NCBI GenBank assembly: GCA_019044685.2
Contig: JAGTXX020000003.1
Coordinates: 620,001-684,000, forward strand
Direction of reading: 5' to 3'
DNA length: 64,000 nt
Source of the DNA: Nannochloris sp. 'desiccata'
Lineage: Eukaryota; Chlorophyta; Trebouxiophyceae; Chlorellales; Chlorellaceae
Shown piece after piece: positions 6,282 through 41,665 of this stretch. The position numbers and the translations under genes were made by a program. The first letter of the stretch is position 1. Every line of letters begins with the position of its first letter. Under the pieces are notes generated by a model. It saw only the letters and a list, made by a program, of their open reading frames with translations. It searched no databases and had not been told where the DNA came from.

Positions 6282-8239
6282 ATGAGCACTGCACTGATTG
6301 GTGCTGGCTCTAGCCTCCTGAGCATTCGCGTGAAGCCTAGGCCAGCAAGGGGCCATGTAAAGACGACGGCGGCGGCCAAACTGCCATATGGACAAGGTGA
6401 CAGTTCACCCCGAAAGATTTCTACGCAGACCCAAGCAACGAACCCTGCTGTCAGTGCCTCAGCAATGGTGCAGCCAGACTTGGTTATTGAGCGCCAGCAT
6501 TTGGAGAAGTTATACACTTTCGATGGCTCGTTGGAAGTTGATATTCAGCAAACTGAGAGTAGCACTGATCAGGCACTTCAGGACGTCGAGGCATTGCTCC
6601 AGGACCTTCAGGGGCTCGATGCCGAGTTGGAATCTGCATTAGAAGTAGTGAAGGAAGACTTTTCTGAGCTTACCGTAAGTTTGCTTATGTAGAGTTTCGC
6701 TGATTTCATATTGATAGCCTTATTGGTCATTTAGTGGGCCAATTCGCCTGATCATTGCAATTTTCCCAATTAAAGTCTCAATTATCTTCATACCTCACTT
6801 CTCACACATTGCTTTTTACTTTTTTATATATACAGGATGAAGACAAGGCCAAGCTCGTAGCTCAACGGGAGAAGCAAATGGCCAAGATGAAATCAAAATC
6901 CAGCCGTGTACGTAGCTCCAAACCTCAACGCGACTCTCGAGTCGTCCGTGCCGACAAGCCCGCACGGGAACCTAGAGCAAAACAAAGCCGCAAGGTCTCA
7001 AGCTCTGCTGCTTCAGCTGCCGTAGAAATTGGCACCGTAGATGGCAATTCCACCTCATCTAGTGGAACTGCCCGTGCTGAAAGCGGTGCTGGGGCTAGCA
7101 CAAGTCGCGGTGGTTTAACATCCCCTGCTAGCGGCCCGGATATGGTGGCCGAAGTAAGTGGCAGAGCAAGTGCCCGTGCTGCTTCTCGTAGCGCACGCCT
7201 TCACCGTCCAACTTCTGCACGTAGTCTTGCATCCAACATAGGCTCTACCACCCCGAAATTGGACTCTGCTGCTGAAGCTGAGCTCGCTCAACGAGACCCC
7301 GAAGCCTTTTTACGATCCATCACTCGGAATCAACTTTTATCCGCGGAACAGGAACGTCAACTAGCTATGCTCGTTCAAGATCGTGTAGAAATCGAAGGTA
7401 TTGCTAGGGAAACTGCCTTAAAAAATCAAAAGGCTCCAACTGATGCTGAATGGGCTGCTGCTGCTGGATTGACACCTGAGCAGTTGACCCGCAAGTTGTG
7501 GCTTGGTCAACAAGCCCGCGAACACATGATCGCCTGCAATATGCGTCTTGTAGTTTCTATTGCGAAGCGTTATGTTGGTCGTGGTATGGCTTTACAAGAT
7601 TTAGTTTCTGAAGGAGTTCAGGGTCTCAAGCGAGGTGTTGAGAAATTCGATCCCTCCAAGGGTTTCAAATTTTCTACCTATGCCCATTGGTGGATTCGTC
7701 AAGCTGTAACCCGCTCTATCTCGGACCAAGGGCGTGTTGTTCGTTTACCTGTCCATCTTCATGAAGCTCTGGCTCGCGTTAGAAAAGTTGAGGAAGAACT
7801 TGCCGAATCTCTTGGTAGGACCCCTACTGCGTACGAGGTAGCTGCTACGTCTGATATGTCGTATAGCAAATTAACAGCTTTGTATAAAGCCTTCCGTGCA
7901 CCTACGTCTTACGAAACTCCCAACCCTGCTGATGCTGATGATGAGCGTAATCACAGTGATGAGTATATCGAGGACACAGCTGGTGATGATCCCAGCGTTG
8001 ATGCTGCTCGTAGGATGCTTCAATTGGATTTGGAAAACGTGTTGAATACCTTTCCCCAAAGGGATGCGAATATTATCAGGATGAGGTATGGATTGACTGA
8101 TGTTAAAGAAAGTACGCTAGAAGAAGTTGGAAAGAAACACAATTTAACACGCGAGCGTATTCGTCAGCTCGAGGCAAAAATCTTAAAGAAGTTGAGGAGC
8201 CCGTCACGTGTACAGCACTTGGCACCTACTAAATACTAA
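6282..8239 (+). CDS. Plastid RNA polymerase sigma-70 factor, two exons
   Basis: Confers promoter recognition on the bacterial-type plastid RNA polymerase. Exon 1 (6282-6674) and exon 2 (6836-8239) join in phase 0 at gtaagt and tatatacag, giving 598 residues. The N-terminus ([22 protein letters not shown]) is a typical plastid transit peptide. It is followed by a long, low-complexity Ser/Ala/Arg-rich region. Region 1.2 ([20 protein letters not shown]) and region 2 ([40 protein letters not shown]) are clear, and so is region 4.2 ([20 protein letters not shown]). Regions 2.3-2.4 have the aromatic [12 protein letters not shown] needed for melting. It belongs to the primary-like (SigA-type) group and is probably the general plastid sigma factor. 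The plus-strand frame starting at 6755 reads through the intron. Confidence 0.93.
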
Positions 8240-21142: not shown

Positions 21143-21876
21143 TTGGAGCAACTGTCTTTTTACCCGAAATTCGACGTTACAAAGATACTGGTAACCAAGA
21201 TTTTAAGCCCATTGCATCATGCACACGAGATGCATGGTCTTCAAGCTAGAAATTCTCGCGTTAGCCTCAGAGGAGCATAAGATGCTAAGATTTAAATCTT
21301 TAAAGCAAGTTATCTTCGAATGCTTTTATCTCTTGACTTAACAACTGGCTCTCACATGATACAAGGATATGGTGTTAGAAATATACAAGTTCAAACTCCT
21401 TTTGCTAGTGACCATTGAATCTCGAACTTTTGCCCTATATACCCTGCTGGGAGAGGGTGGGAGCAGGCAACCAAAACAAAGTTAGAAGAAATATATATCC
21501 CAGAAATATAGTTCTCCCACGGATATAGTGAGGACTCCAACTCCAAGGAGGCCTGATATTTGATTTCAAAGCGATTCCTTGATTCTGATCAGATCTTCAC
21601 AGTCTGCTTCCTGACATTATGACAGCTCTAATCTTTATATGTGTTTCCAATATCAAATCCACATTTGATATCGACATGTAACGGCCGCCATCGTCATTTT
21701 TCACTGTTAAAGCAGCTTTGGGGATCCAGCCGCCAGCCATGATCAGCGTCGCCAGCCAAAAAATGGCAGTAGCTCCCTCAAAAGGGCAGGCATCGCACAA
21801 GCAAGCTGGGGCAACAGATGTAGAGAAGTAAAGGTAGGTGAAGTTGCTCCAGAGGTCATCAGCGCTTCTCCACCCA
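21143..21876. other. Intergenic region, edge of the accessory island
   Basis: Contains the glycosyltransferase promoter and the 3' flank of the left recombinase gene. A 116-codon minus frame at 21597-21947 overlaps the recombinase end in another frame and is not supported. I could not find a terminal repeat marking the island edge. Confidence 0.4.
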
Positions 21877-24043
21877 CTAGGCTCCAGCCCGTTCAGCCTC
21901 AGCCCATTGCACCGCCGGCCAGCCCGTTGTCGCCTGCCAGTGAACATCCAGCAGGTTCTTTAGGTCCAGCTTGGTTACTTTTGACCGTCCTTTGATAGTA
22001 CTCTTCAGCTTCTGCATGTCAGTTGTGTTGACAACGCCCTGCAGCGCCTCAATGAACGTGGAAATGCTGATGCCTGCTCTCCCGCCGAGTGACTTCTCCT
22101 TGGCGTCGAGCTTCTCCAAGACCCCCTGCAGAGCTTGAATACCACTCTGCAGGTCGCCCTTCTCCTCAGAAAGCCTCGCAATCACCCTCACCACCGCTTC
22201 GAGCCTGCCCTTCTGCATTGTGAGGCCATGGGGTTGCTTGGTGTCGGAGCTCTCAACGATGTTGTTGATGATTGGTCTCTCCTGCTCCCACAGGTTCCAG
22301 AGGTCAACGCAGGTCTTGCAGTCGCGGAATGCAATCGAGTGGCTGGCGTAGACCTTGGTGGAGGCCTTGGGAACCTCCACAGCGACTCTGGGCGGAGCAT
22401 CATGGGCATCTTCTTCTCTATTTTCAATTTTTTCAATTGCCCGACGCTCCTTGTCCAACACCTTCTCAGCAAACTTTTTGTACTCGGCAGTCTGCATGAT
22501 GCCATTGATTTCTTTTAGATGAGCTAGCGTATAACGGTCTCCGTACCGGTGGTATTTCAAGGGGAGGTTCTGCCAGCATACCATCCCCAAATACAACAAC
22601 ACCTGTAAGAAAGTCTCGGCGCCTATTTCCTTCTCGTGGCATTTCAACCCTTGATGCTGCTCCAAGAGTATCTGCAGCGCTTTTCTCACTCCTGGCATGA
22701 CTGCATCGACCCATGAATCAGGCACCTGCACCTCTGCGCGCCCCAAATAGTGTTTGAATGACCCCTTGAACCCGGCAAGGGCTAAATGAGCACCCAGGTG
22801 CTGGCAGCGCCGACGACTGGCTTTTTGCTAAGTACGAGTTGGCACAGGTACCGCTGCCTGATTTCCACTCACCGAGCCGTTCTACGATGTCGACAGAGGT
22901 GTGAGCACCTGACCGAATGGCGGCGGTGTTGCGCATGAGGTGCATCAAGCGGTTTACTGTATTTCGCAGCCCGGCCTTGCTGAGTTGGTTGCTGAAGAGC
23001 GCCGTCAGTCCATCAGCAGATACACTGTTATCTTGATGGAACAGAGGCATCGTGCGCCATTCTTCTCTTCTATGCAACACCAAGTCCCCAAAGTCAACGT
23101 CTCTGCCTGGAGTCAAGGCATCGTAGATCAGAAGGTCGGCTAACCAGCCTTGAGCGTCGAGGTGGGCATGTTTATGGAGGCCGCATGCAGCACCGCGAAA
23201 CTCGCCATACTTGTTCGTCTTTGTGTTCCCATCTTTTTTAACATTTAGTAAGCAATGCTGAACTGGGTTTGTGTCTTGGGTCGTGGTGAACATTGCTTTG
23301 TACTTCATCGTGCAAAGGTCGCTGCAGCGGGAAGCGCTGCTGAAGCCGAAGCTGATGAACGCTGCAGTAAGCCATCGGGAGCGGCTGTCGCCTCCAACCC
23401 TCATGCAACTATCAATAACCTGTTCGTACTCATGGGGTTTTAGCGTCGTTGTCTCCTCGGTTCCCAGCAAGGAATTGGCCTCCGGGGCGAACTTTCTCTT
23501 TGCCGTCACCCTCCCAGCGGTCTCCAGAGCTCCTCTAAACCACGCATCATCCTTCAGGCTACCAGGCCTCGGTATGCCCAGCTGGCACTCTCTTAGTTTT
23601 ATCATCGCATTTTGGAAAGAACTCATGCTTCCTTTTAAGTTGTCGCCCTTCAGTAGGCTGTCCACAACAATCTGGGCGGCGTCGGCAACTTTGCTCACAG
23701 GGTGGGCGAGGCATGAAAGAGGCTGGCTCTCGTACTCTGGACGTGTGTTCAGCTCAGCTATCGCTGCGTGAAAGTGATTCCAATAGGTCTGGTAGCTCTT
23801 TCTGGTATTTTTTTCAAGCTTTCCAAATTTGTCATAGACCCGAACCGCCTGGGCGCGCTTCTTCTCGCCGCCACAGCGCTGTAGGTCGTCTTCGGAGATG
23901 GGCTTGGCACCTAGCCCGGTGTATTCCAAGAGGATGATTGGATCGTAGCTTGCGAGATACTCCTCTACATCAGCAAGGGGCCACAGACGTGAGAGACACT
24001 CGATGGCGTTGGTAGGCATTTGGATCATGATTTTCACTTGCAT
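21877..24043 (-). pseudogene. Tyrosine recombinase (Crypton-like), interrupted by a frameshift
   Basis: Two overlapping frames make one gene. Part 1 (24043-22718, 441 residues) carries the recombinase catalytic pattern: an arginine in SSASRCSDLCTMKYK (near 23320), HxxR as HLMRNTAAIRS (near 22940), a Trp in ERLGEWKSGSG and the tyrosine in CANSYLAKS (near 22832). Part 2, up to 22746, continues in the frame shifted by one base. That frame is open upstream to about 22800 and reads FKHYLGRAEVQVPDSWVDAV, so a one-base change near 22800-22815 explains the break. The last ~200 residues (TCVDLWNLWEQERP) may be a GCR1_C-like DNA-binding domain, as in Cryptons. Such enzymes cut and rejoin DNA through a covalent tyrosine link. 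GC content looks higher than in neighbouring host genes. It is transcribed away from the palindrome. A programmed shift or sequence error is possible. Confidence 0.72.
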
Positions 24044-25520
24044 TCTATAGCTGCTAGCTCCTTATATGACTTTTTTCGTATAGAATAGAATAGAGTATCT
24101 GTATTGTGTAATTATTTAAAGGATTTCGCAGGCTTGTTATGCTTTGTAGAGGGCAAAAATCTTTAAATACATTTTCCCGGGAATCCTGCTCCCGCCTTTG
24201 TCCTCCTCCAGCGTGCTGGGTATCGGCGATAACGAATTCTGTCGAAAGCGGCGCTATCCATCGACACTCGTATAATATACTCTGCAGTGGCAACCACCAT
24301 GGGAGCTGGTGTACCCTTGTGACACGGCTAATCTTTAACTGCCTTTGCCAGCTGTAGCCTCCCCGTCAACGGCGGCCTCCAGCCCCAAACCACCTCAAGA
24401 AGTGCCGGCGACAGAGTGCCGGCGACGATGAAACAATCGATGGCTAATTGATTGATAACTACTGTGGATTAATTAATTGCGCTTGGGCGGCGCACTGGAA
24501 GTTGTTATTTTGGCCCGCTGCTGGTTCCGGGATCCCGGAGCTTGCCAAGCTGTTTTACGAGATTGCCGGCGACTTTAATTCTTCAAAACTTTCTGTGTTT
24601 TTACGCTTTACAACGTTGAGCTTTATGGAAACATTGTTTATCACCGTCTTACATGTTAATCACTATTTAAAAACATGTTTTTATCAAGACCTTGAAAAAT
24701 GCGCCGAAAAAATACTTTCTTCAAGATTTTTTTGACTTGAAAAAACAAATTATTTGGCCACAAGAGGGACTTGGATTTAGGTATATTCTAGATTGATGAC
24801 AATCAGCATAGCTGGAAAAAAAATCAAGTATAAAAAATATATTTTTAATACTCGAAATCACAAAAAAGGCAAAAGTTGTCCCTCCACTGCAGTACTAAGA
24901 CCTTACTATTTGGGCGACTTTGATGCCCTTACGGTCGATGTTTCAGAGCTCATTTTGGGCTATCAGTTTCTATATTAGGTCATCCATGTGGTTTCCTTTA
25001 ACATAGCGTCTCATTTGTGGCTCTGTTAACTACTCTAGCGCTGTGGGGCTTTGAGAGGACGATGCGGCCAAACTTTTTATAGAAAGGTTAAACGTTGGTT
25101 GAATCTTATGTAAAAATGGTAGTGGTGGTTAAAGACATGGGTGGGGAACGTTGAACGCCGGCTGCGGGCCACTGCATCATCATGAAGCACCGCCGACGAC
25201 GGTTGAGGCCTGGCCAGCTCTCCTTCCCCTTAAAGCAAGCCCTTCCATCACCCTTGCCATTTGGTAGTGGGTTGGTTGAATTCTGAGCTCCGCTGCCCCA
25301 AATGACCCCGAAATAGATAGAGGATAAGAAGGTACCTCTGGGATCCCGGTGTGGACTCAAACTGTTCTCTAACCATAACGTGTTTGGGGCAGTTTGGGTC
25401 CATTGAATTTGGAAATAGAAATCTTTGACCCCCAAAGTGTACTCTAACGTATAGTGTCTGGGACAGTTTGGGTCTCACCACAGTCAAGTTATAACGAGAA
25501 AGCTATTTGACCCCGAAAAC
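24044..25520. other. Non-coding stretch between left recombinase and palindrome
   Basis: About 1.5 kb with no supported gene. It holds a 12-base direct repeat (agtgccggcgac, near 24400-24425) and a diverged tandem pair around 25379-25401 and 25454-25477 sharing the core cagtttgggtc. The palindrome begins abruptly at 25521. Short frames here are not convincing. Confidence 0.5.
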
Positions 25521-26509
25521 AGTAGGAAGGGCTTGAGAAGGTTCTTCAACTAAAACAAAGAGGTCTGGCTGGGATTCTGTTGCTGTGGGCAAGACCCCGG
25601 GCTGGGATTCAAAATCAGCGGTGGCTCCTGCAGGCTCCATGTTGCCTAGGAAGAAACGCTACTATGTCTCGAAATAAACACCAATTAGATTAAAGATGTG
25701 AAACGGAACCTAGGCTGATGAATACACTCCATGCATAGGACGTGTGGCAGCTCCTTCAAGGTAGGAAGCTGCTGCAGTACCGGCGAAGGAAGGAGCAAGG
25801 ATATTGCACCAGCTTACAAACTAACAGATAAAGACAGTGCAGCTATCTATCTCAAGTGATTGTGTTACATACAGACGATATAGATACCATATGAAGATAT
25901 AGAGGCGATAGATGTTGGGTATCTGCCCTGAATGTGCAATTAAAGAGTTTGGCGGTGGCTGGCGGTGAAGGCGGTGGAAATTCGTTCCTCACAAAACTGA
26001 GATAGAAAGGCAGTATAGCTGCGTCTCAGCAAGGCAGCTCACTGCATGTGGGTGATGGAGCAGTAGATGAAAGCGTAGTGCTGATTGCCGGAGGTTTCTC
26101 CACCAACTGGTGCTATTAGACAGCTTGGCAGCCACCGGGGGGCTGGCTGGCGGTGGGAGCGGTGGTGGGAACCAGTGGGATTTGCCCAAGGCAGCAGCGA
26201 CTCGGTCAAGAGGAGAACGAGCGCAGCTGGATATTCAACGAGCTGATGTCGATGATTTGATATCGTGGGTGCTGCCACTCAGGGGTGCAGACGCAGCGAG
26301 TGATCAGGAATCGCCTGAGCGATCATCAACTTTATGATCAGCGCAGCATTGGTGGCGAGCAGACTGCTGCAGCCTCTCACAGATATTTGGTATTCGTTTC
26401 TCTTTGCAAGAATTGCTCAGAACGGCGTTTAAAGCCTTCTCCCAGCCTTTCTCCCAGTCTTCTCCCCGGGAGTGGGGCCCAGCCTCACTTATTCATCTCC
26501 CACGCAAAA
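25521..26509 (-). mobile_element. Truncated mirror copy of the recombinase element
   Basis: The outer 989 bp of the left palindrome arm mirror the start of the element at 28314-31231. They include one terminal repeat (26436-26509), the non-coding 5' part and the first 40 codons of recombinase exon 1 (25640 down to 25521). The copy stops in mid-exon; the frame then ends within a few codons of unrelated DNA. It cannot encode a recombinase but its terminal repeat is intact. Confidence 0.8.
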
Positions 26510-26648
26510 AACCAAAAGAAATTATTAGAAGCCCTGCAGGCAATTCAAGCATATTATTTTTTTCCTAGTCTTTTTTAAAGAAAAATACTCTAAGTGTTTA
26601 GGGACTGCTGGCTAAGGCTGTTTCCGCTTTTACTCGTAATTTTCCTCG

Positions 26649-27483
26649 ATGCAACGCCCAAGCCGTGGGCCGTTTGCTCTCTTAGGGACCGCAGCGGCAT
26701 TAGGAGTAGGAGTCAGAGCGATCAAAAAAGTAAGTGCATCATCTTTGCCGTTTTTGTTGGCAACAGATTAGAACTTATCTGAATTGTTTGTTGTTTTCAT
26801 CTTGGATCAGCTCACTAATTAATTTACTGTTCTCTTGTGCTTGCGCATCTTGTAGGCTCGTCCATTCCAAGCATATAATGCCCTAAACCCCCTGAATTCT
26901 ATGGTTTTACCGGCCAGCTTGGCTTCATTCGAACTTGCTGCGGAATCCACCTACTCCAACTGCCCTAATTGCAAACCCCAATTTTGGGACAACTTGCCCA
27001 TCAAAGAATTAGTTATCTGCGGCATCTTTTTTGTAGGAGTGGTTCTAAGTGGACAAGCTGCCGTGGCTGCCGTAAGTGCCTTCATTTTCAAAAAAGTGCT
27101 TTTCTGGCGGGAGTCCCAGGTCTCTATTTATCTTCTTTTCCTCGTTTTCTAAAATATGACTTCACCTTTCTTTCCTTCTGTAGAACATCGGGTACGCTAG
27201 AATCATTGGTTTCACTTTCGCAGTGGGATCAGCTACTTTTACCGCTGCAAGCAAGCTCTTTGGGATTGAAAAAGAAACCACAATTTTAGGCCTAAAAATA
27301 GATCAAGAAACCGCAATGTTAGGCCTAAAAATAGATCACCTAGAGACGAGGCAAGCAGAATTCAAGGTCGATGTCAACCAGGTGAAGGTCGATCTCAACC
27401 AGGTGAAGGTCGATCTCAACCAGGTGAAAGTCGACCTTCACCTGGTTGACATCGACCTTGAATTCTGCTTGCCTCGTCTCTAG
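26649..27483 (+). CDS. Membrane/coiled-coil protein spanning the palindrome centre, plus copy
   Basis: Not recognised. Exons 26649-26729, 26856-27071 and 27184-27483 join in phase 0 at gtaagt/ttgtag and gtaagt/tctgtag, giving 198 residues. The N-terminus MQRPSRGPFALLGTAAALGV is basic and small-residue-rich, possibly an organelle-targeting sequence. A CPNCKP motif and a hydrophobic segment (LVICGIFFVGVVLSGQAAVA) follow, then a second hydrophobic stretch (IGFTFAVGSATFTAASKLFG). Next come near-repeats LGLKIDQETAM / LGLKIDHLET and 7-residue repeats of the type VDLNQVK. The last ~18 residues (ending LEFCLPRL) are read from the antisense of the gene's own KVDVNQ region, past the palindrome centre. 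The original gene was therefore probably longer or ended differently. Confidence 0.65.
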
Positions 27484-28174
27484 GTGATCTATTTTTAGGC
27501 CTAACATTGCGGTTTCTTGATCTATTTTTAGGCCTAAAATTGTGGTTTCTTTTTCAATCCCAAAGAGCTTGCTTGCAGCGGTAAAAGTAGCTGATCCCAC
27601 TGCGAAAGTGAAACCAATGATTCTAGCGTACCCGATGTTCTACAGAAGGAAAGAAAGGTGAAGTCATATTTTAGAAAACGAGGAAAAGAAGATAAATAGA
27701 GACCTGGGACTCCCGCCAGAAAAGCACTTTTTTGAAAATGAAGGCACTTACGGCAGCCACGGCAGCTTGTCCACTTAGAACCACTCCTACAAAAAAGATG
27801 CCGCAGATAACTAATTCTTTGATGGGCAAGTTGTCCCAAAATTGGGGTTTGCAATTAGGGCAGTTGGAGTAGGTGGATTCCGCAGCAAGTTCGAATGAAG
27901 CCAAGCTGGCCGGTAAAACCATAGAATTCAGGGGGTTTAGGGCATTATATGCTTGGAATGGACGAGCCTACAAGATGCGCAAGCACAAGAGAACAGTAAA
28001 TTAATTAGTGAGCTGATCCAAGATGAAAACAACAAACAATTCAGATAAGTTCTAATCTGTTGCCAACAAAAACGGCAAAGATGATGCACTTACTTTTTTG
28101 ATCGCTCTGACTCCTACTCCTAATGCCGCTGCGGTCCCTAAGAGAGCAAACGGCCCACGGCTTGGGCGTTGCAT
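27340..28174 (-). CDS. Membrane/coiled-coil protein, mirror copy on the minus strand
   Basis: Exact mirror of the plus copy: exons 28094-28174, 27752-27967 and 27340-27639. The proteins differ only in the central repeat, where the spacer read from this side gives FHLVEIDLHLVEIDL in place of the VDLNQVK run. The two genes converge and their coding ends overlap by 144 bp (27340-27483). The mobile element begins only 140 bp upstream of this start codon, so insertion was in or near the promoter. Convergent transcription would give mRNAs with complementary 3' parts. Which copy, if any, is expressed is unknown. Confidence 0.6.
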
Positions 28175-28313
28175 CGAGGAAAATTACGAGTAAAAGCGGA
28201 AACAGCCTTAGCCAGCAGTCCCTAAACACTTAGAGTATTTTTCTTTAAAAAAGACTAGGAAAAAAATAATATGCTTGAATTGCCTGCAGGGCTTCTAATA
28301 ATTTCTTTTGGTT

Positions 28314-28387
28314 TTTTGCGTGGGAGATGAATAAGTGAGGCTGGGCCCCACTCTCGGGGAGAAGACTGGGAGAAAGGCTGGGAGAAG
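28314..28387 (+). repeat. Left terminal inverted repeat of the element
   Basis: Pairs with 31164-31231 in inverse orientation; a third copy lies at 26436-26509 in the left palindrome arm, in direct orientation to the right end. It contains a local GC palindrome (ccccactctcgggg) absent from the right end. Confidence 0.75.
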
Positions 28388-29182
28388 GCTTTAAACGCCG
28401 TTCTGAGCAATTCTTGCAAAGAGAAATGAATACCAAATATCTGTGAGAGGCTGCAGCAGTCTGCTCGCCACCAATGCTGCGCTGATCATAAAGTTGATGA
28501 TCGCTCAGGCGATTCCTGATCACTCGCTGCGTCTGCACCCCTGAGTGGCAGCACCCACGATATCAAATCATCGACATCAGCTCGTTGAATATCCAGCTGC
28601 GCTCGTTCTCCTCTTGACCGAGTCGCTGCTGCCTTGGGCAAATCCCACTGGTTCCCACCACCGCTCCCACCGCCAGCCAGCCCCCCGGTGGCTGCCAAGC
28701 TGTCTAATAGCACCAGTTGGTGGAGAAACCTCCGGCAATCAGCACTACGCTTTCATCTACTGCTCCATCACCCACATGCAGTGAGCTGCCTTGCTGAGAC
28801 GCAGCTATACTGCCTTTCTATCTCAGTTTTGTGAGGAACGAATTTCCACCGCCTTCACCGCCAGCCACCGCCAAACTCTTTAATTGCACATTCAGGGCAG
28901 ATACCCAACATCTATCGCCTCTATATCTTCATATGGTATCTATATCGTCTGTATGTAACACAATCACTTGAGATAGATAGCTGCACTGTCTTTATCTGTT
29001 AGTTTGTAAGCTGGTGCAATATCCTTGCTCCTTCCTTCGCCGGTACTGCAGCAGCTTCCTACCTTGAAGGAGCTGCCACACGTCCTATGCATGGAGTGTA
29101 TTCATCAGCCTAGGTTCCGTTTCACATCTTTAATCTAATTGGTGTTTATTTCGAGACATAGTAGCGTTTCTTCCTAGGCAAC

Positions 29183-31205
29183 ATGGAGCCTGCAGGAGCC
29201 ACCGCTGATTTTGAATCCCAGCCCGGGGTCTTGCCCACAGCAACAGAATCCCAGCCAGACCTCTTTGTTTTAGTTGAAGAACCTTCTCAAGCCCTTCCTA
29301 CTTCTAATGAACCCAGTAGGTTTAGATTGTCTTTTATCGATGTTTTTTTGCTACTTTTTAGCTGACCTTGTTGGTGTTGCTGCAGGGACGGTGAGACCTC
29401 GCCGGGGTGATCAAACACCTGCTAAATTCGATGAATTCACCGTTATCAAGCCTACGAGAGGACGCCCTACAAAAAAGCGTGTTGCAGAGGTCCAGCCTAC
29501 GCAGCAGCAGCAACAGGAGCAGGTGGAGCACGACGACCTTTCTGCTGCACTCGCCATCCCCGGCCTGCCAGCTCTTCCTGACCTCGGTGCTGCTGTCCGT
29601 GAGTTCATGCTGGGCGATGGACCAAAGTTGAGCGCAGAAGACATCAAGCGCCTCTCAGACCAAGCTGTGCTCGACCTGTTGGCCAAAATTCCCGCTGCCT
29701 TCCTTGTCAATCTGGACGCCGACCCCCAGCAGCTGGTCAACGCCAATTTACTAGATATTGGGGTATATTTGCAGTACAAAGACCTCACGCTGCCTCTGCA
29801 CCGGTATATTGTAGACAGGGTGTGCGCAGAGTGGTTTGGAAAGCTCCGATTCGCAACCAAAACCAACTATTTTACTGCAATCAACAGAGTCACCGGGGCT
29901 GACCAGCCCCTTGCGACGACAGCCCTCGTGCTGCCCTACGATGCTATTGCTACATCAATTGACAGGATTATCCAATCTGGAGTTGATGCTGGTGCTGTGA
30001 AGCACCCCGCTGGCACATTAAGTGTCTTCCAGTCTGCTCTCACCCGCCTTGTAGCCATCCAGCTAGGGGTCCCGGGGGAGCAACGCCCAGTCGCCGATGC
30101 AACCAAAAAGTTCAAAAATGACACCCTCCTTGCCATTGAGAACAAATCCGCCATTGGAGGAAGTGCGTGGAAGCTGCTGGTGGAGAAGTGGAGGGGCTAT
30201 GCCCACCCAAACAAGCGCGTAGCAGCAGTTCAAAAAATTGCGCAGGCAAAGCTCATCACCGTCGCCGAAATCAAACAAGTCCAAGCAGTTGCCTTGATGA
30301 GCCCCTTGAGAGAGCTGGATGCCATCCTGCTCTCCATAGCTGGCCTGAGCTTTCTGATGTCGAGGGGGAATCGCAGTGAAATTTTGCCTCACCTCAAGTT
30401 CTTTGGAATGAAGCTCACGGTGCACCAAAAACACGACGGCACTACCCGCCGCCTGCTTGGGGTTTCACTCGATGCCCAGCTCAAGCACGATAGTGGCTCG
30501 ATGCTGAGAGACCTTGGCATGCTGCAGCACAAAGACCCACTCCTTGATACACATGGCCACCTCGCTTTCGTAGATTTGAGCTATAACTATCTCTTCGGTT
30601 GGGCTCATGGCCGGGACATCTTGGCTCACATTGCGTGCATGCTGTACGGCACTGTCGCTGCTGCACATGCTGTTGGGGCCTACCGTGCGTCAGAACCCGC
30701 ACTTGCAGCTGAATCAAACCCTCTTGGGTGGTTGGAGTACGGTTTTCTAGCCAAAGGCAAGGCGACAGAAGCGAAAGTGGGTCAAATTACGAGCAACTTA
30801 AGAACCTTGCTCAAGGAAGCTGAGTTGCGCAAGGTCGTTGTTGGGCATCTTGGTCGCAATACCCTCTGTACCACCTTGCTTTCTGAAGATGTATCATCGT
30901 ACCAGACAGCGACGTTGATGGGGTGGAGCCTTCAGGACCAGATGCAACGTTCTTACGCCTCCAAAACCTCCATTGCTGCTTTGCCTGCGCTGGAAGCTGC
31001 TGCTGGTTTTGCTCAAGGAGAGGCCTACAACGTGCCTCGGTCCACAGTAGACCCAGCGCAGCTGTGCCCGAATGTCTACAAGCTCTTTGTGCCCGACTGG
31101 ATGGTGAGGCTTCGGGAGCAGGTGGCAGCAGGCGTAGCCCAGCACGGCGTTGAGTATGTCAGTTCCCAGCCCTCTCCCAGCCTTTCTCCCAGCCTCGCTT
31201 ATTGA
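29183..31205 (+). CDS. Tyrosine recombinase of the palindrome-associated element, two exons
   Basis: Exon 1 (29183-29315) lies almost wholly in the right palindrome arm; exon 2 (29386-31205) follows after a 70-bp intron (gtaggt...ttgctgcag) in phase 1. The protein has 650 residues. The frame opening at 29274 reads through the intron. The N-terminal ~110 residues are disordered, with a Gln/Glu stretch and a basic patch (RGRPTKKR). The middle is helical, as in core-binding domains. Catalytic residues are the Arg in SRGNRSEILPHL (near 30360-30385), HxxR as GHLGRNTLCTT (near 30845), a Trp in LMGWSLQDQ and the Tyr in QRSYASK (near 30950). After the tyrosine, ALPALEAAAGF and LFVPDWMVRL parallel the left recombinase, but the long C-terminal domain there is missing. 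The frame is intact, so the enzyme may be active. Confidence 0.8.
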
Positions 31206-31231
31206 ATAAGTTATTCATCTCCCACGCAAAA
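31164..31231 (-). repeat. Right terminal inverted repeat of the element
   Basis: Ends in ctcccacgcaaaa. It contains the recombinase stop codon and the codons for the SPSLSPSLAY tail. It differs from the left repeat by an ~11-bp internal ttattgaataag-type insertion. Confidence 0.75.
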
Positions 31232-37877: not shown

Positions 37878-39327
37878 ATTAATTACATAACTTGTAATTC
37901 AGCTTATTATTGCATAGCTAATCCTTGAAATTGAATTCTTAACAAAAATACCACTGCTACTGTATACCACCACACAAAATTTCCTCCCAGAATCAAACCA
38001 AAAAAGACACCTGCCATATAACAAAAAAAACCTCTTCGACGTCTTTTCAACAAAACAAATGATTATTACTCGGTATCCAATCCATTAGCAATCTCCTCAG
38101 GACAAGGCATCCCCAACCCAGTATTATAAAAATTGAACCCATGCGCAAATCGCACACCCACAGGCACCATTCCACACAACTTTGGGTTATTATGGCCAAG
38201 AAAAGAGATCATTTGATGCTTTGCTAAAGGATACAAATCACCTTCGAAATCGTTATTGTCGATCCCTAATTGCGACAACTGTTGTCGAGTATTGGACAAG
38301 GACTGAGGGATTCTTCCAGTCATTTTATTCATACCTAATCTGAGCCAGTTCATATTTTTCATGTTGCCATACGCTTCAGGAATAGGGCCAGTAATCTGAT
38401 TGACGTCAACTTTGAATTGTTGGAGAGATTGCACGTCAGCAATGGCGGCGGGGATCTCTCCGGAGAGTTGGTTATAAGAAAGATCAATTTCTCTTAATTG
38501 AGGGAAGCATTCAGCAAAACCAGTAGGAATCTCACCGGTCAACCGACCACCATCGAGGTCAAATTCACGGAGACTCTTGAAACCACAGAGCTCTTGTAAC
38601 GGAACGGCGCCTTCAAGACCATAATCAGTTATATGGACGTTAGTTACAACACCAATTCCGGGGACTGCATCTTTTGTATATGTAACAGGAGGTCCTCTGC
38701 ATGCCATGTGCTCCCAGTTACCCCAGACTTCCTGCCCACAGGGATCACAGGAGCCGCCAAAGGAGTTGTCTGGGCGAGTAGGGCAGGTCCAGGAAGACAA
38801 GGCACGAGTCCAACTCTGGCCAGGGCGAGCAAGCATGGCATCACGGAACTCGACCAACATATCATCTGTAAAGAAGAAGAAAAGCGTAAAAGAGAATGGA
38901 AAAAAATGAAAAACCGGATTTCAAGTAGGGGCTGCAGTCGGTTCTCAGCCCAGCCCGACTCGACTGAGAAAAGGGGAGAGCCACTAGCCTAGATTCCTTT
39001 TTCGGCCACTTACATTGATCAGGGTCAGTGCCAGCCAGAGTTTGCTGCGCAGACAGGGCTAATAAGAGGCTTGTAGCGACGAAAATCGCTTGAAACTTCA
39101 TAGTATTCGCTGTCTATTTCTGGCGAACTTTGAAGGTTATAAATCTGTTTCTCTGCTTCTATTGCTCTCTAAAGACGTCCCGACGACGTATAATAACCTT
39201 GGTATATATTATATGCTATGAAATTGGAGGTAGAGTGGGAATTTCTCCATCAAGGTGCCACGCGGTGCTACTTTTGAGTTTTCGGTGATTTTCTCGGTTT
39301 TCATCGGAAGCCACAAAACTGGAGCGA
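37878..39327. repeat. Tandem duplication, copy 1
   Basis: Direct repeat with 39988-41665, covering an LRR gene plus flanking DNA on both sides (start ttacataacttgtaattcag; end in a gtttcatcggaagcc block). The coding part is nearly identical; flanks have small indels. Confidence 0.8.
38066..39101 (-). CDS. Secreted leucine-rich-repeat protein, two exons
   Basis: Exon 1 (39014-39101) is a signal peptide, MKFQAIFVATSLLLALSAQQ then TLAGTDPDQ. Exon 2 (38066-38865) joins after gtaagt...tttacag in phase 1; total 295 residues. The mature protein has an N-cap with paired cysteines (SWTCPTRPDNSFGGSCDPCG, then WEHMACRG), then 5-6 plant-type LRRs (LREFDLDGGRLTGEIPTGFA, LREIDLSYNQLSGEIPAAIA, and so on) and a Cys-containing C-cap (NNPKLCGMVPVGVRF). 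It has no membrane helix or kinase, so it is likely secreted, possibly a cell-wall protein or inhibitor-like binder (compare plant PGIP-type repeats). It is followed by a frameshifted tandem copy. Ligand unknown. Confidence 0.82.
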
Positions 39328-39987
39328 GGCGGTAAAAATAGCTGCTATCACTAGTGCAAGGGTCTCTACAAGGAGTATTATGTACTCTAACTTTTACATC
39401 GCTTAGCATTTTGCCTGTTTTAGGAATATGAGAAGCAGTAGATATTATCACTGCTATAAAGAGCGCAGTAGGGTCCTATCTACTTGCTGGCGGTGGATCT
39501 GTCGCAGGCATAGAGACTGTGTCGGGCTCTTCTGCGGCACCAAAGACAAGTTTATATCGTTTTCTCAAATACCGCAGCTGCTAACGGAGGATATTTAAAG
39601 CCTAATTTCCGATATTCTTTCCAGACCGCGGATTTATTCTCTCGTACCATCCCAACCAGTTCTAAGGACATTAAATGCTTGTCGGTTCGCTTCCGGAATT
39701 CCGAGCCCGCTGGAGACGCCTCATTTCCACATTATATTTATAAAGCATCTCTTTACCTTGGTTATTACGAGCTATTGCAGCATATTATAATACCTTTCTG
39801 AGCCCTGGGGCGTTCTGTGCCTAGAAGACGAGCTAAGAGTGAGGCGACAGGAGCTCCAGTTGCTACGTATACGAGCTTCTCTTCGCGTGTTGCTATAAAG
39901 TAACTACCAGAGAGTCCCTGGTATCTATAAGGAGCAACTGACTGTCAATTGACGCAGCAGGCTGCGTAGTTTGCGTGGAATATTCTT
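39328..39987. other. Spacer between the two LRR copies
   Basis: 660 bp with no supported gene, between the repeat units. It contains the promoter of copy 1. Confidence 0.4.
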
Positions 39988-41665
39988 ATTTACATAAATT
40001 GCAGTTCAGGTTTATTATCGCCTCGCTAATCCTCGAAATTCAATTCTTGAAATTTAATTCTTTAACAAACATACCACTGTTACTGTACAGTAGAGGAACT
40101 TTTGTGACACGTGTACACCGCCACAAACGTTCCTTAAATATCAAACAAAAGACACCTGCCATATACCCCCCACCCCCCCAAAGAAAAACTCTCCTCCGAC
40201 GTCTTTTCAAAGAAAACGATTTTTACTCGGTATCCAATCCATTAGCAATCTCCTCAGGACAAGGCATCCCCAACCCAGTATTATAAAAAATGAACCCATG
40301 CGCAAATCGCACACCCACAGGCACCATTCCACACAACTTTGGGTTATTATGGCCAAGAAAAGAGATCATTTGATGCTTTGCTAAAGGATACAAATCACCT
40401 TCGAAATCGTTATTGTCGATCCCTAATTGCGACAACTGTTGTCGAGTATTGGACAAGGACTGAGGGATTCTTCCAGTCATTTTATTCATACCTAATCTGA
40501 CCCAATTCATACTTTCCAAGTCGCCAAAGGATTCAGGAATAGGGCCAGTGAGGTCGTTAAAATCTACTTTGAATTGTCGGAGAGGCCATTGCCGACGTGC
40601 AATGGCGGCGGGGATCTCACCGGAGAGTTGGTTATAAGAAAGATCGAGTTCTCTTAATTGAGGGAAGCATTCAGCAAAACCAGTAGGAATCTCACCGGTC
40701 AACCGACCACCATCGAGGTCAAATTCACGGAGACTCTTGAAACCACACAGCTCTTGTAAAGGAACGGCACCCTCAATACCTTGATCAGTTATATGGACGT
40801 TAGTTACAACACCAATTCCGGGACTTCATCTTTTGTATATGTAACAGGAGGCCCTCTGCATGCCATGTGCTCCCAGTTACCCCAGACTTCCTGCCCACAG
40901 GGGTCACAGGAGCCGCCAAAGGAGTTGTCTGGGCGAGTAGGGCAGGTCCAGGAAGGGAAAGCACGAGTCCAACCCTGTTGACCAGGGCGAGCAAGCATGA
41001 CATCACGGAACTCGACCAACATCGCATCTGTAAAGAACAAGAATAGCGTAAAAGAGGATGGGAAATATTGAAGAACCGGATTTCAAGTAGGGGCTGCAGT
41101 CGGTTCTCAGCCCAGCCCGACTCGACTGAGAAAAGGGGAGAGCCACTAGCCTAGATTCCTTTTTCGGTCACTTACATTGATCCGGATCAGTGCGAGCCAG
41201 AGTTTGTTGCGCAGACAGGGCTAATAAGAGGCTTGTAGCGACGAAAATCGCTTGAAACTTCATAGTATTCGCTGTCTATTTCTGGCCAACTTTGAAGGTT
41301 ATATAAATCTGTTTCTCTGCTTCTATTGCTCTTTAAAGACGTGTCGACGACTTATAATAATCTTGGTATATATTATATGCTTTCAAAATGGAGGTAGATT
41401 GGGACTTTTTCTCATCAACGCGGTTCAAAACCGGGTTCTTGCAACACAGGACCTCCAAGTTGGCTTACGGAGCCCAACAGGAGCTGGCCCTTTCTTCCTA
41501 TTTTCTATATATTCTCCTATCCTTGACTGTCTGTACATCTTTTATATATCTAAAATAGCCTTGTAACACCTGCTCAGCCTAACCCAGCAGCACAGGGTCA
41601 ACAATTCTACTTTTGAGTTTTCGGTTTTTTTTTGGTTTTCATCGGAAGCCCCAAAGCTGGAGCGA
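39988..41665. repeat. Tandem duplication, copy 2
   Basis: Second unit of the LRR gene duplication. Near 41418-41607 it carries an ~190-bp stretch where copy 1 has about 17 bp, so one copy gained or lost DNA after duplication. Confidence 0.75.
40223..41263 (-). pseudogene. Frameshifted second copy of the LRR gene
   Basis: Exon 1 (41176-41263) keeps a signal peptide nearly identical to copy 1. Exon 2 (40223-41027) begins normally (AMLVEFRDVMLARPGQQGWT), but one G is missing near 40820: copy 1 reads ccgggg where this copy reads ccggg. The frame therefore ends early, after DEVPELVL. Downstream the LRR frame is open again from 40702 to the old stop and is still highly similar, with changes clustered in the third and fourth repeats (RRQWPLRQFKVDFNDLTGPI against copy 1). 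The break is recent or is a sequence error, because the rest of the frame is intact. Confidence 0.8.

Follow-up and report, generated by a model that had tools for sequence, protein, structure and literature searches.

A near-perfect palindrome joins a putative transposon cargo gene to its own antisense in the green alga Nannochloris sp. 'desiccata'

Fold-back inversions of yeast and man (PMC7467729, PMC3907307) are inverted duplications whose axis has a short unique spacer and repeats or microhomology, with a second join at the outer end. In yeast, hairpin stems were as short as 4 bp, secondary rearrangements accompanied all cases, and the median of the large loops was 36 nt in cells proficient in MRE11/SAE2 (PMC7467729); at human junctions, inverted microhomology of 2-8 bp was reported at 13 (PMC3907307). 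Here we describe a comparable palindrome, with a short spacer and repeats at its axis and a rearranged outer end, in the green alga Nannochloris sp. 'desiccata'. It lies in a window of 64,000 bp (C3:620001-684000, where C with a number denotes a contig of the same assembly), and its axis falls within a gene that is thereby joined to its own antisense. The 38-nt loop is close to the yeast median. In contrast to the yeast and human cases, however, the arms of 1.9 kb, and those of 3.0 kb in a second palindrome on C2, are made of transposon DNA in a natural algal genome, and the palindrome is apparently older than a split between alleles, and its arms appear to have been kept alike.

Two other described systems offer a comparison. 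The palindromes of sex chromosomes (PMC3403216) likewise have near-identical inverted arms with genes, for which gene conversion has been proposed, but in the alga the gene itself is cut by the axis, in sequence that is transposon cargo. Nematomorph mitochondrial palindromes (PMC6649704) are inverted repeats within coding sequence, as here, but they reach up to 284 bp and function is kept, whereas the algal arms span 1.9 kb and a C-terminal tail has been lost. A literature search at title level found no publication title on the algal palindrome. The assembly comprises 21.55 Mb in 18 contigs; for N. desiccata UTEX 2526, PMC12636532 tabulates 21.6 Mb and 45.0% GC and mentions a diploid assembly. 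All counts of whole-genome matches given below are lower bounds, other assemblies were compared at the protein level, and the labels recombinase and Crypton are based on weak matches and on motifs read by eye.

The assembly does contain the palindrome, and chance is excluded as its cause. It consists of the following parts.

25521..27392, plus strand: left arm, 1,872 bp, with 2 mismatches against the right arm
27393..27430, no strand assigned: spacer (loop), 38 bp, asymmetric, built from 21-bp units of the left gene copy in sense orientation
27431..29302, minus strand: right arm, 1,872 bp

An earlier note on this DNA had claimed two 1872-bp arms around a 38-bp spacer, which was confirmed, and both arms were returned by a whole-genome search. 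The two mismatching pairs of the arms are 26396/28427 and 26469/28354, while the remaining 8 between 25521 and 29302 all fall in the spacer and the innermost 923 bp of the arms contain none. At 28427 the right arm carries the base of the other copies, and at 28354 the alignment leaves the ancestral base undecided. Pairing collapses beyond 25521/29302, with 14 of the 20 pairs mismatched from 25501 to 25520, and the flanks differ to the left and right of the palindrome. Folding of the DNA of 27340-27484 gave a z of -21.8, with 0 of 200 shuffles equally good; an Rfam search returned 0 matches.

At the axis, two copies of one gene converge on a tandem repeat.

26649-26729, 26856-27071 and 27184-27483, plus strand: exons of the left mirror gene (coordinates with the stop), 198 aa, C-terminus coded by antisense
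28174-28094, 27967-27752 and 27639-27340, minus strand: exons of the right mirror gene, C-terminus coded by antisense
27364..27434, plus strand: 21-bp tandem repeat, 3.4 copies, coding for KVDLNQV heptads and containing the self-complementary TCGA

The three-exon structure, proposed earlier from the sequence, is confirmed by two database proteins. P0012 (198 aa) is 100% identical to the predicted splice of the left copy, and P0016 (NADE_008657), a database model of the same contig, reads a mirror copy in a shorter form of 125 aa. The further claims of a 144-bp overlap in coding sequence (27340-27483) and of a C-terminus read from the antisense of the same gene held for both copies, which end in antisense heptads, ...DIDLEFCLPRL. 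The reading frame stays open across the mirror because the heptad repeat, when read in antisense, again gives open heptads, the 21-bp unit reading KVDLNQV in sense and HLVEIDL in antisense. A comparison of the gene with Pfam gave nothing above the cut-off. Unmirrored relatives were found as one match each at C14:441948-442631, C7:482793-483473 and C16:258758-259431, and the DNA of all three continues past the heptads into a hydrophobic C-terminal tail (on C14, for example, ...LRFYVIGLGVILSTLILLKG), which is likewise present in the proteins P0013, P0015 and P0017. Judged by these sequences, both mirror copies are cut ahead of the hydrophobic tail and have lost it, and we label the gene as a putative small membrane-protein gene carried as transposon cargo.

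The junction is also found in another assembly, KSW81, in the form of a short protein stretch rather than DNA. The protein P0014 (KSW81_002096) represents a copy of the heptad gene that is frame-shifted and has one extra 21-bp unit; it ends ...ESRPSPG where the palindrome junction dictates, whereas the unmirrored C14 copy would continue in that frame. P0014 and P0001 (KSW81_002094), a relative of the recombinase-like gene recB beside the palindrome, both lie on a KSW81 contig of 1,067,241 bp. The junction-predicted end of a KSW81 protein therefore counts against an assembly artefact and for an origin older than the split of the alleles. A very young palindrome is disfavoured by the same C-terminus.

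The near identity of the arms had been put down to recent origin or gene conversion, and this is supported, with the junction in the second assembly tilting the choice: since another assembly already has it, conversion is favoured somewhat over a very recent origin. A comparison between the assemblies shows 7 differing residues of 605 in recB and 1 of the first 128 in the heptad gene. Given 7-9 changes per 1,815 bp, an assumed minimum rate taken from protein changes between the assemblies, the probability of no more than 2 differences in 1,872 bp is 0.025-0.005. The low divergence of the arms thus suggests arm-to-arm gene conversion.

By its sequence context, the mirrored gene belongs to a cluster of tyrosine-recombinase-like transposon genes.

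29183..31205, plus strand: recB, tyrosine-recombinase-like, 650 aa by predicted splice, exon 1 starting in the right arm and exon 2 outside it
28314..31231, plus strand: recB unit, bounded by two identical 21-bp inverted ends (28314-28334, 31211-31231)
25521..25640, minus strand: recB exon 1 in a copy cut after the first 40 residues, at the outer edge of the left arm
21425..24061, minus strand: recA, recombinase-like, two pieces in different frames, with a terminus at about 21436-21456 common to other copies

The outer half of each arm is composed of a repeated region and recB exon 1. With 40 of the 79 first-look candidates scored, 50 places matched some part of the right arm, namely the 2 arms, the 3 heptad-gene loci on C14, C7 and C16, and 45 places that match the outer half. 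These 45 further places and the flanking recombinase-like genes speak against the mirroring of a host gene alone. The first 21-bp end of the recB unit has a mirrored copy at 26489-26509, and the 17-bp core of this end had 36 genome matches within 2 mismatches versus 7 for a reversed control. For the far-end terminus of recA, 12 places were found within 2 mismatches and 0 for the control.

The product of recB has an HxxR...Y motif, as read by eye, and matches Pfam Phage_integrase with an E of 0.042, under the cut-off; 3 of 7 members of the family match this domain, the best with an E of 0.037, also under the cut-off. Alignment of recB against PDB gave 0 matches and a PHROGs search nothing useful. 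Of the 11 database protein matches to recB, 9 are named Nannochloris sp. 'desiccata'. For recA, nothing in Pfam was above the cut-off; BLASTP aligned it to recB at 26% identity over 281 columns (E 4.7e-09), and hhalign against the recB family gave an E of 0.00026 but a probability of 42. The gene is split over two frames, and its C2 relative is in one frame. A truncation of recA at 24074 was considered and dropped, as the homology of other copies ends there or earlier too. Between recA and the left arm, 24630-25105 is a dispersed repeat with copies of 78-80% on C12 and C10 and of 74% on C8.

Crypton-type transposons have a tyrosine recombinase and are not known to have terminal inverted repeats. 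The recB family resembles them in its tyrosine-recombinase-like HxxR...Y motif, and the C2 copy matches NDC10_II with an E of 0.049, under the cut-off. It differs from them in the identical 21-bp inverted ends of the recB unit, and no match exceeds a curated cut-off. On C8 the repeated region adjoins ATPase_2-like genes; that cargo gene has 33 matches, and its own match to ATPase_2 (E 4.5e-07, 30.4 bits) is below the cut-off of 33.2. At C8:385500-392500 such ATPase_2-like genes lie in tandem units of about 2.47 kb, 91% alike, in an array that ends beside a recB copy. Elsewhere in the window, 37879-39253 and 39986-41418 form a direct repeat of about 1.4 kb, 88% identical, with genes that by eye are leucine-rich-repeat-like.

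A second palindrome of the family occupies C2:558740-564763 (6,024 bp), between an ABC-transporter-like gene on one side and a carrier-like gene on the other (labels given by eye). Its arms differ at 2 of 2,993 sites outside a spacer that is again 38 bp (561733-561770), so that the window and C2 alike show an inverted duplication around a short single-copy spacer. Within each C2 arm lie a broken recombinase-like gene, the repeated region common to the window arms and, adjoining it, a cargo gene cut at the axis. This cargo gene has 14 matches in total, the better ones on C2, C8, C4, C10 and C11, and its relatives on C4, C8 and C10 continue past the axis point; a search with the cargo protein gave 11 relatives, of which 0 are named as Nannochloris sp. 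'desiccata'. Both outer ends extend to the common terminus of the family plus about 13 bp, and a target-site duplication was not seen in the inspected flanks of this palindrome. The C2 element resembles Foldback / Galileo elements in that long inverted repeats form most of it and reach the common terminus, but the window arms end inside recB exon 1 and not at element termini, and the gene is recombinase-like in place of a transposase. Among the family places listed, these 2 are near-perfect palindromes and the others are not mirrored at high identity; the second one suggests that elements of this family may be prone to mirroring. At C14:283489-284069, known from coordinates only, two ATPase-like cargo pieces of about 158 bp each lie on opposite strands around a spacer of about 265 bp, possibly an older and smaller fold-back.

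We consider it probable, at about 0.62, that the window palindrome arose by microhomology-primed fold-back of a broken end in the 21-bp repeats, followed by a second join at the outer end and then by arm-to-arm conversion. The break, the fold-back, the second join and the conversion are steps that we infer, to be set beside the observed anatomy, family context, lost C-terminus, second palindrome and KSW81 junction. A DNA end would have broken within the 21-bp repeats of the small cargo gene, and a 3' end finishing in the TCGA of one unit would have annealed to the TCGA of a unit upstream, leaving a 38-nt loop, the present spacer, and priming synthesis back along the arm. The copied arm would then have been joined to other DNA at its outer edge, either at 25520/25521 or at 29302/29303. 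The gene, cut before its hydrophobic tail, would thereby have become two convergent genes reading into each other's antisense, and arm-to-arm gene conversion would have kept the arms alike afterwards.

The sequence of the axis can be read in these terms. Sense units framed by two TCGA motifs make up the spacer, antisense starts immediately after it, and TCGA is present in the repeat units of both the window locus and C14. As TCGA is self-complementary and occurs in every unit, fold-back of a 3' end onto a unit further upstream is feasible. The left gene runs without interruption into the spacer, and the left arm therefore looks like the template; the intact recB runs on from the right arm only. 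A second rearrangement is seen at the outer end, where homology stops inside recB exon 1 and the sequence on the left is unrelated.

Several points weigh against the fold-back reading. Protein comparison with other assemblies found no unmirrored allele of the window locus that would show the microhomology and the arm that served as template. The proposal of the earlier note, that the repeated units offer a short-homology route to fold-back strand switching, is supported as a plausible route but not proven. The unit on the junction side reads AAAGTCGA, one base off the plain TCGA-primed product AAGGTCGA. The polarity of the spacer, which belongs to the left arm, and the continuity of recB on the right side need a second exchange; an exchange involving a different copy of recB, or conversion at a later stage, would account for both. 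Human fold-back spacers run from hundreds of bases to tens of kilobases (766-70,466 bp, PMC3907307) against 38 bp here. Finally, the conversion argument sets coding protein changes against arms that are mostly non-coding, and the heptad gene itself differs between the assemblies at 1 residue in 128.

An alternative that we regard as unlikely is that two elements inserted in inverse orientation, after which the intervening DNA was lost via the inverted 21-bp units and conversion homogenised the arms, without any fold-back synthesis. This would account for arm identity that reaches the exact edge of homology and for the presence of an intact recB at one end and a cut copy at the opposite end; the family occurs in mixed orientations on C8 and C10, and a close inverted pair, 75% alike, exists on C7 (L007 6053-6395 / 7504-7848). 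However, two insertions do not predict a 38-bp spacer and an axis in a cargo gene in both palindromes, and the other close inverted pairs seen are diverged and not near-identical.

More doubtful is that the family makes palindromic dimers during its movement and then inserts them, so that self-mirroring would be part of its life cycle: an excised, hairpin-ended element, for example, would be turned by copying into a palindromic dimer that carries one and the same terminus at either end, and would then be reinserted. The equal spacers of two palindromes in one family, and the C2 ends at the common terminus plus about 13 bp on both sides, are what such dimers would give, but the edge of the window palindrome falls in recB exon 1 and not at a terminus, and the remaining family places listed are not mirrored at high identity. 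A large mirror on C15, moreover, has a gene-like axis without a match to the family loci retrieved, and fold-back is therefore not shown to be specific to the recombinase-like family. If true, self-mirroring would repeatedly yield mirror-image cargo genes with antisense tails, which may feed silencing by double-stranded RNA. The earlier note had also conjectured that transcripts could form long double-stranded RNA and be a source of small RNAs. The genome has two matches to the Piwi domain over the cut-off, at C11:123501-124418.

It is very improbable that fold-back reads or joined haplotypes produced the palindrome as an assembly artefact. Two other mirrors of this assembly, a giant near-identical inverted duplication with a 4-nt spacer on C15 and an identical inverted 1.5-kb copy on C17, may be misassemblies, but the palindrome is local, with differing flanks, two arm differences and an asymmetric spacer, and KSW81 has the junction with a different number of units. 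On C15, 450000-451500 is matched by a near-identical copy in inverted orientation at 807748-809246. Around the axis, near 629590 in the stretch 625000-634900, the spacer GCTG lies between inner arms that are perfect over 116 bp, and the mirroring extends to this copy, 180 kb from the axis. It may represent joined haplotypes, misassembly or a true isochromosome-like structure. The copy of C17:200000-201500 lies at C17:458938-460438, with a 99% copy at C9:1285235, and an inverted repeat was absent from the 9.9 kb around the C17 midpoint.

The compact genome of this green alga thus holds two sequence-resolved palindromes in one transposon family, with equal 38-nt loops and near-identical arms. 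They make the origin, the age and the homogenisation of small palindromes testable across existing strains. The window locus also shows how a new protein end can arise by inverted duplication, as the antisense heptads keep the frame open across the mirror.

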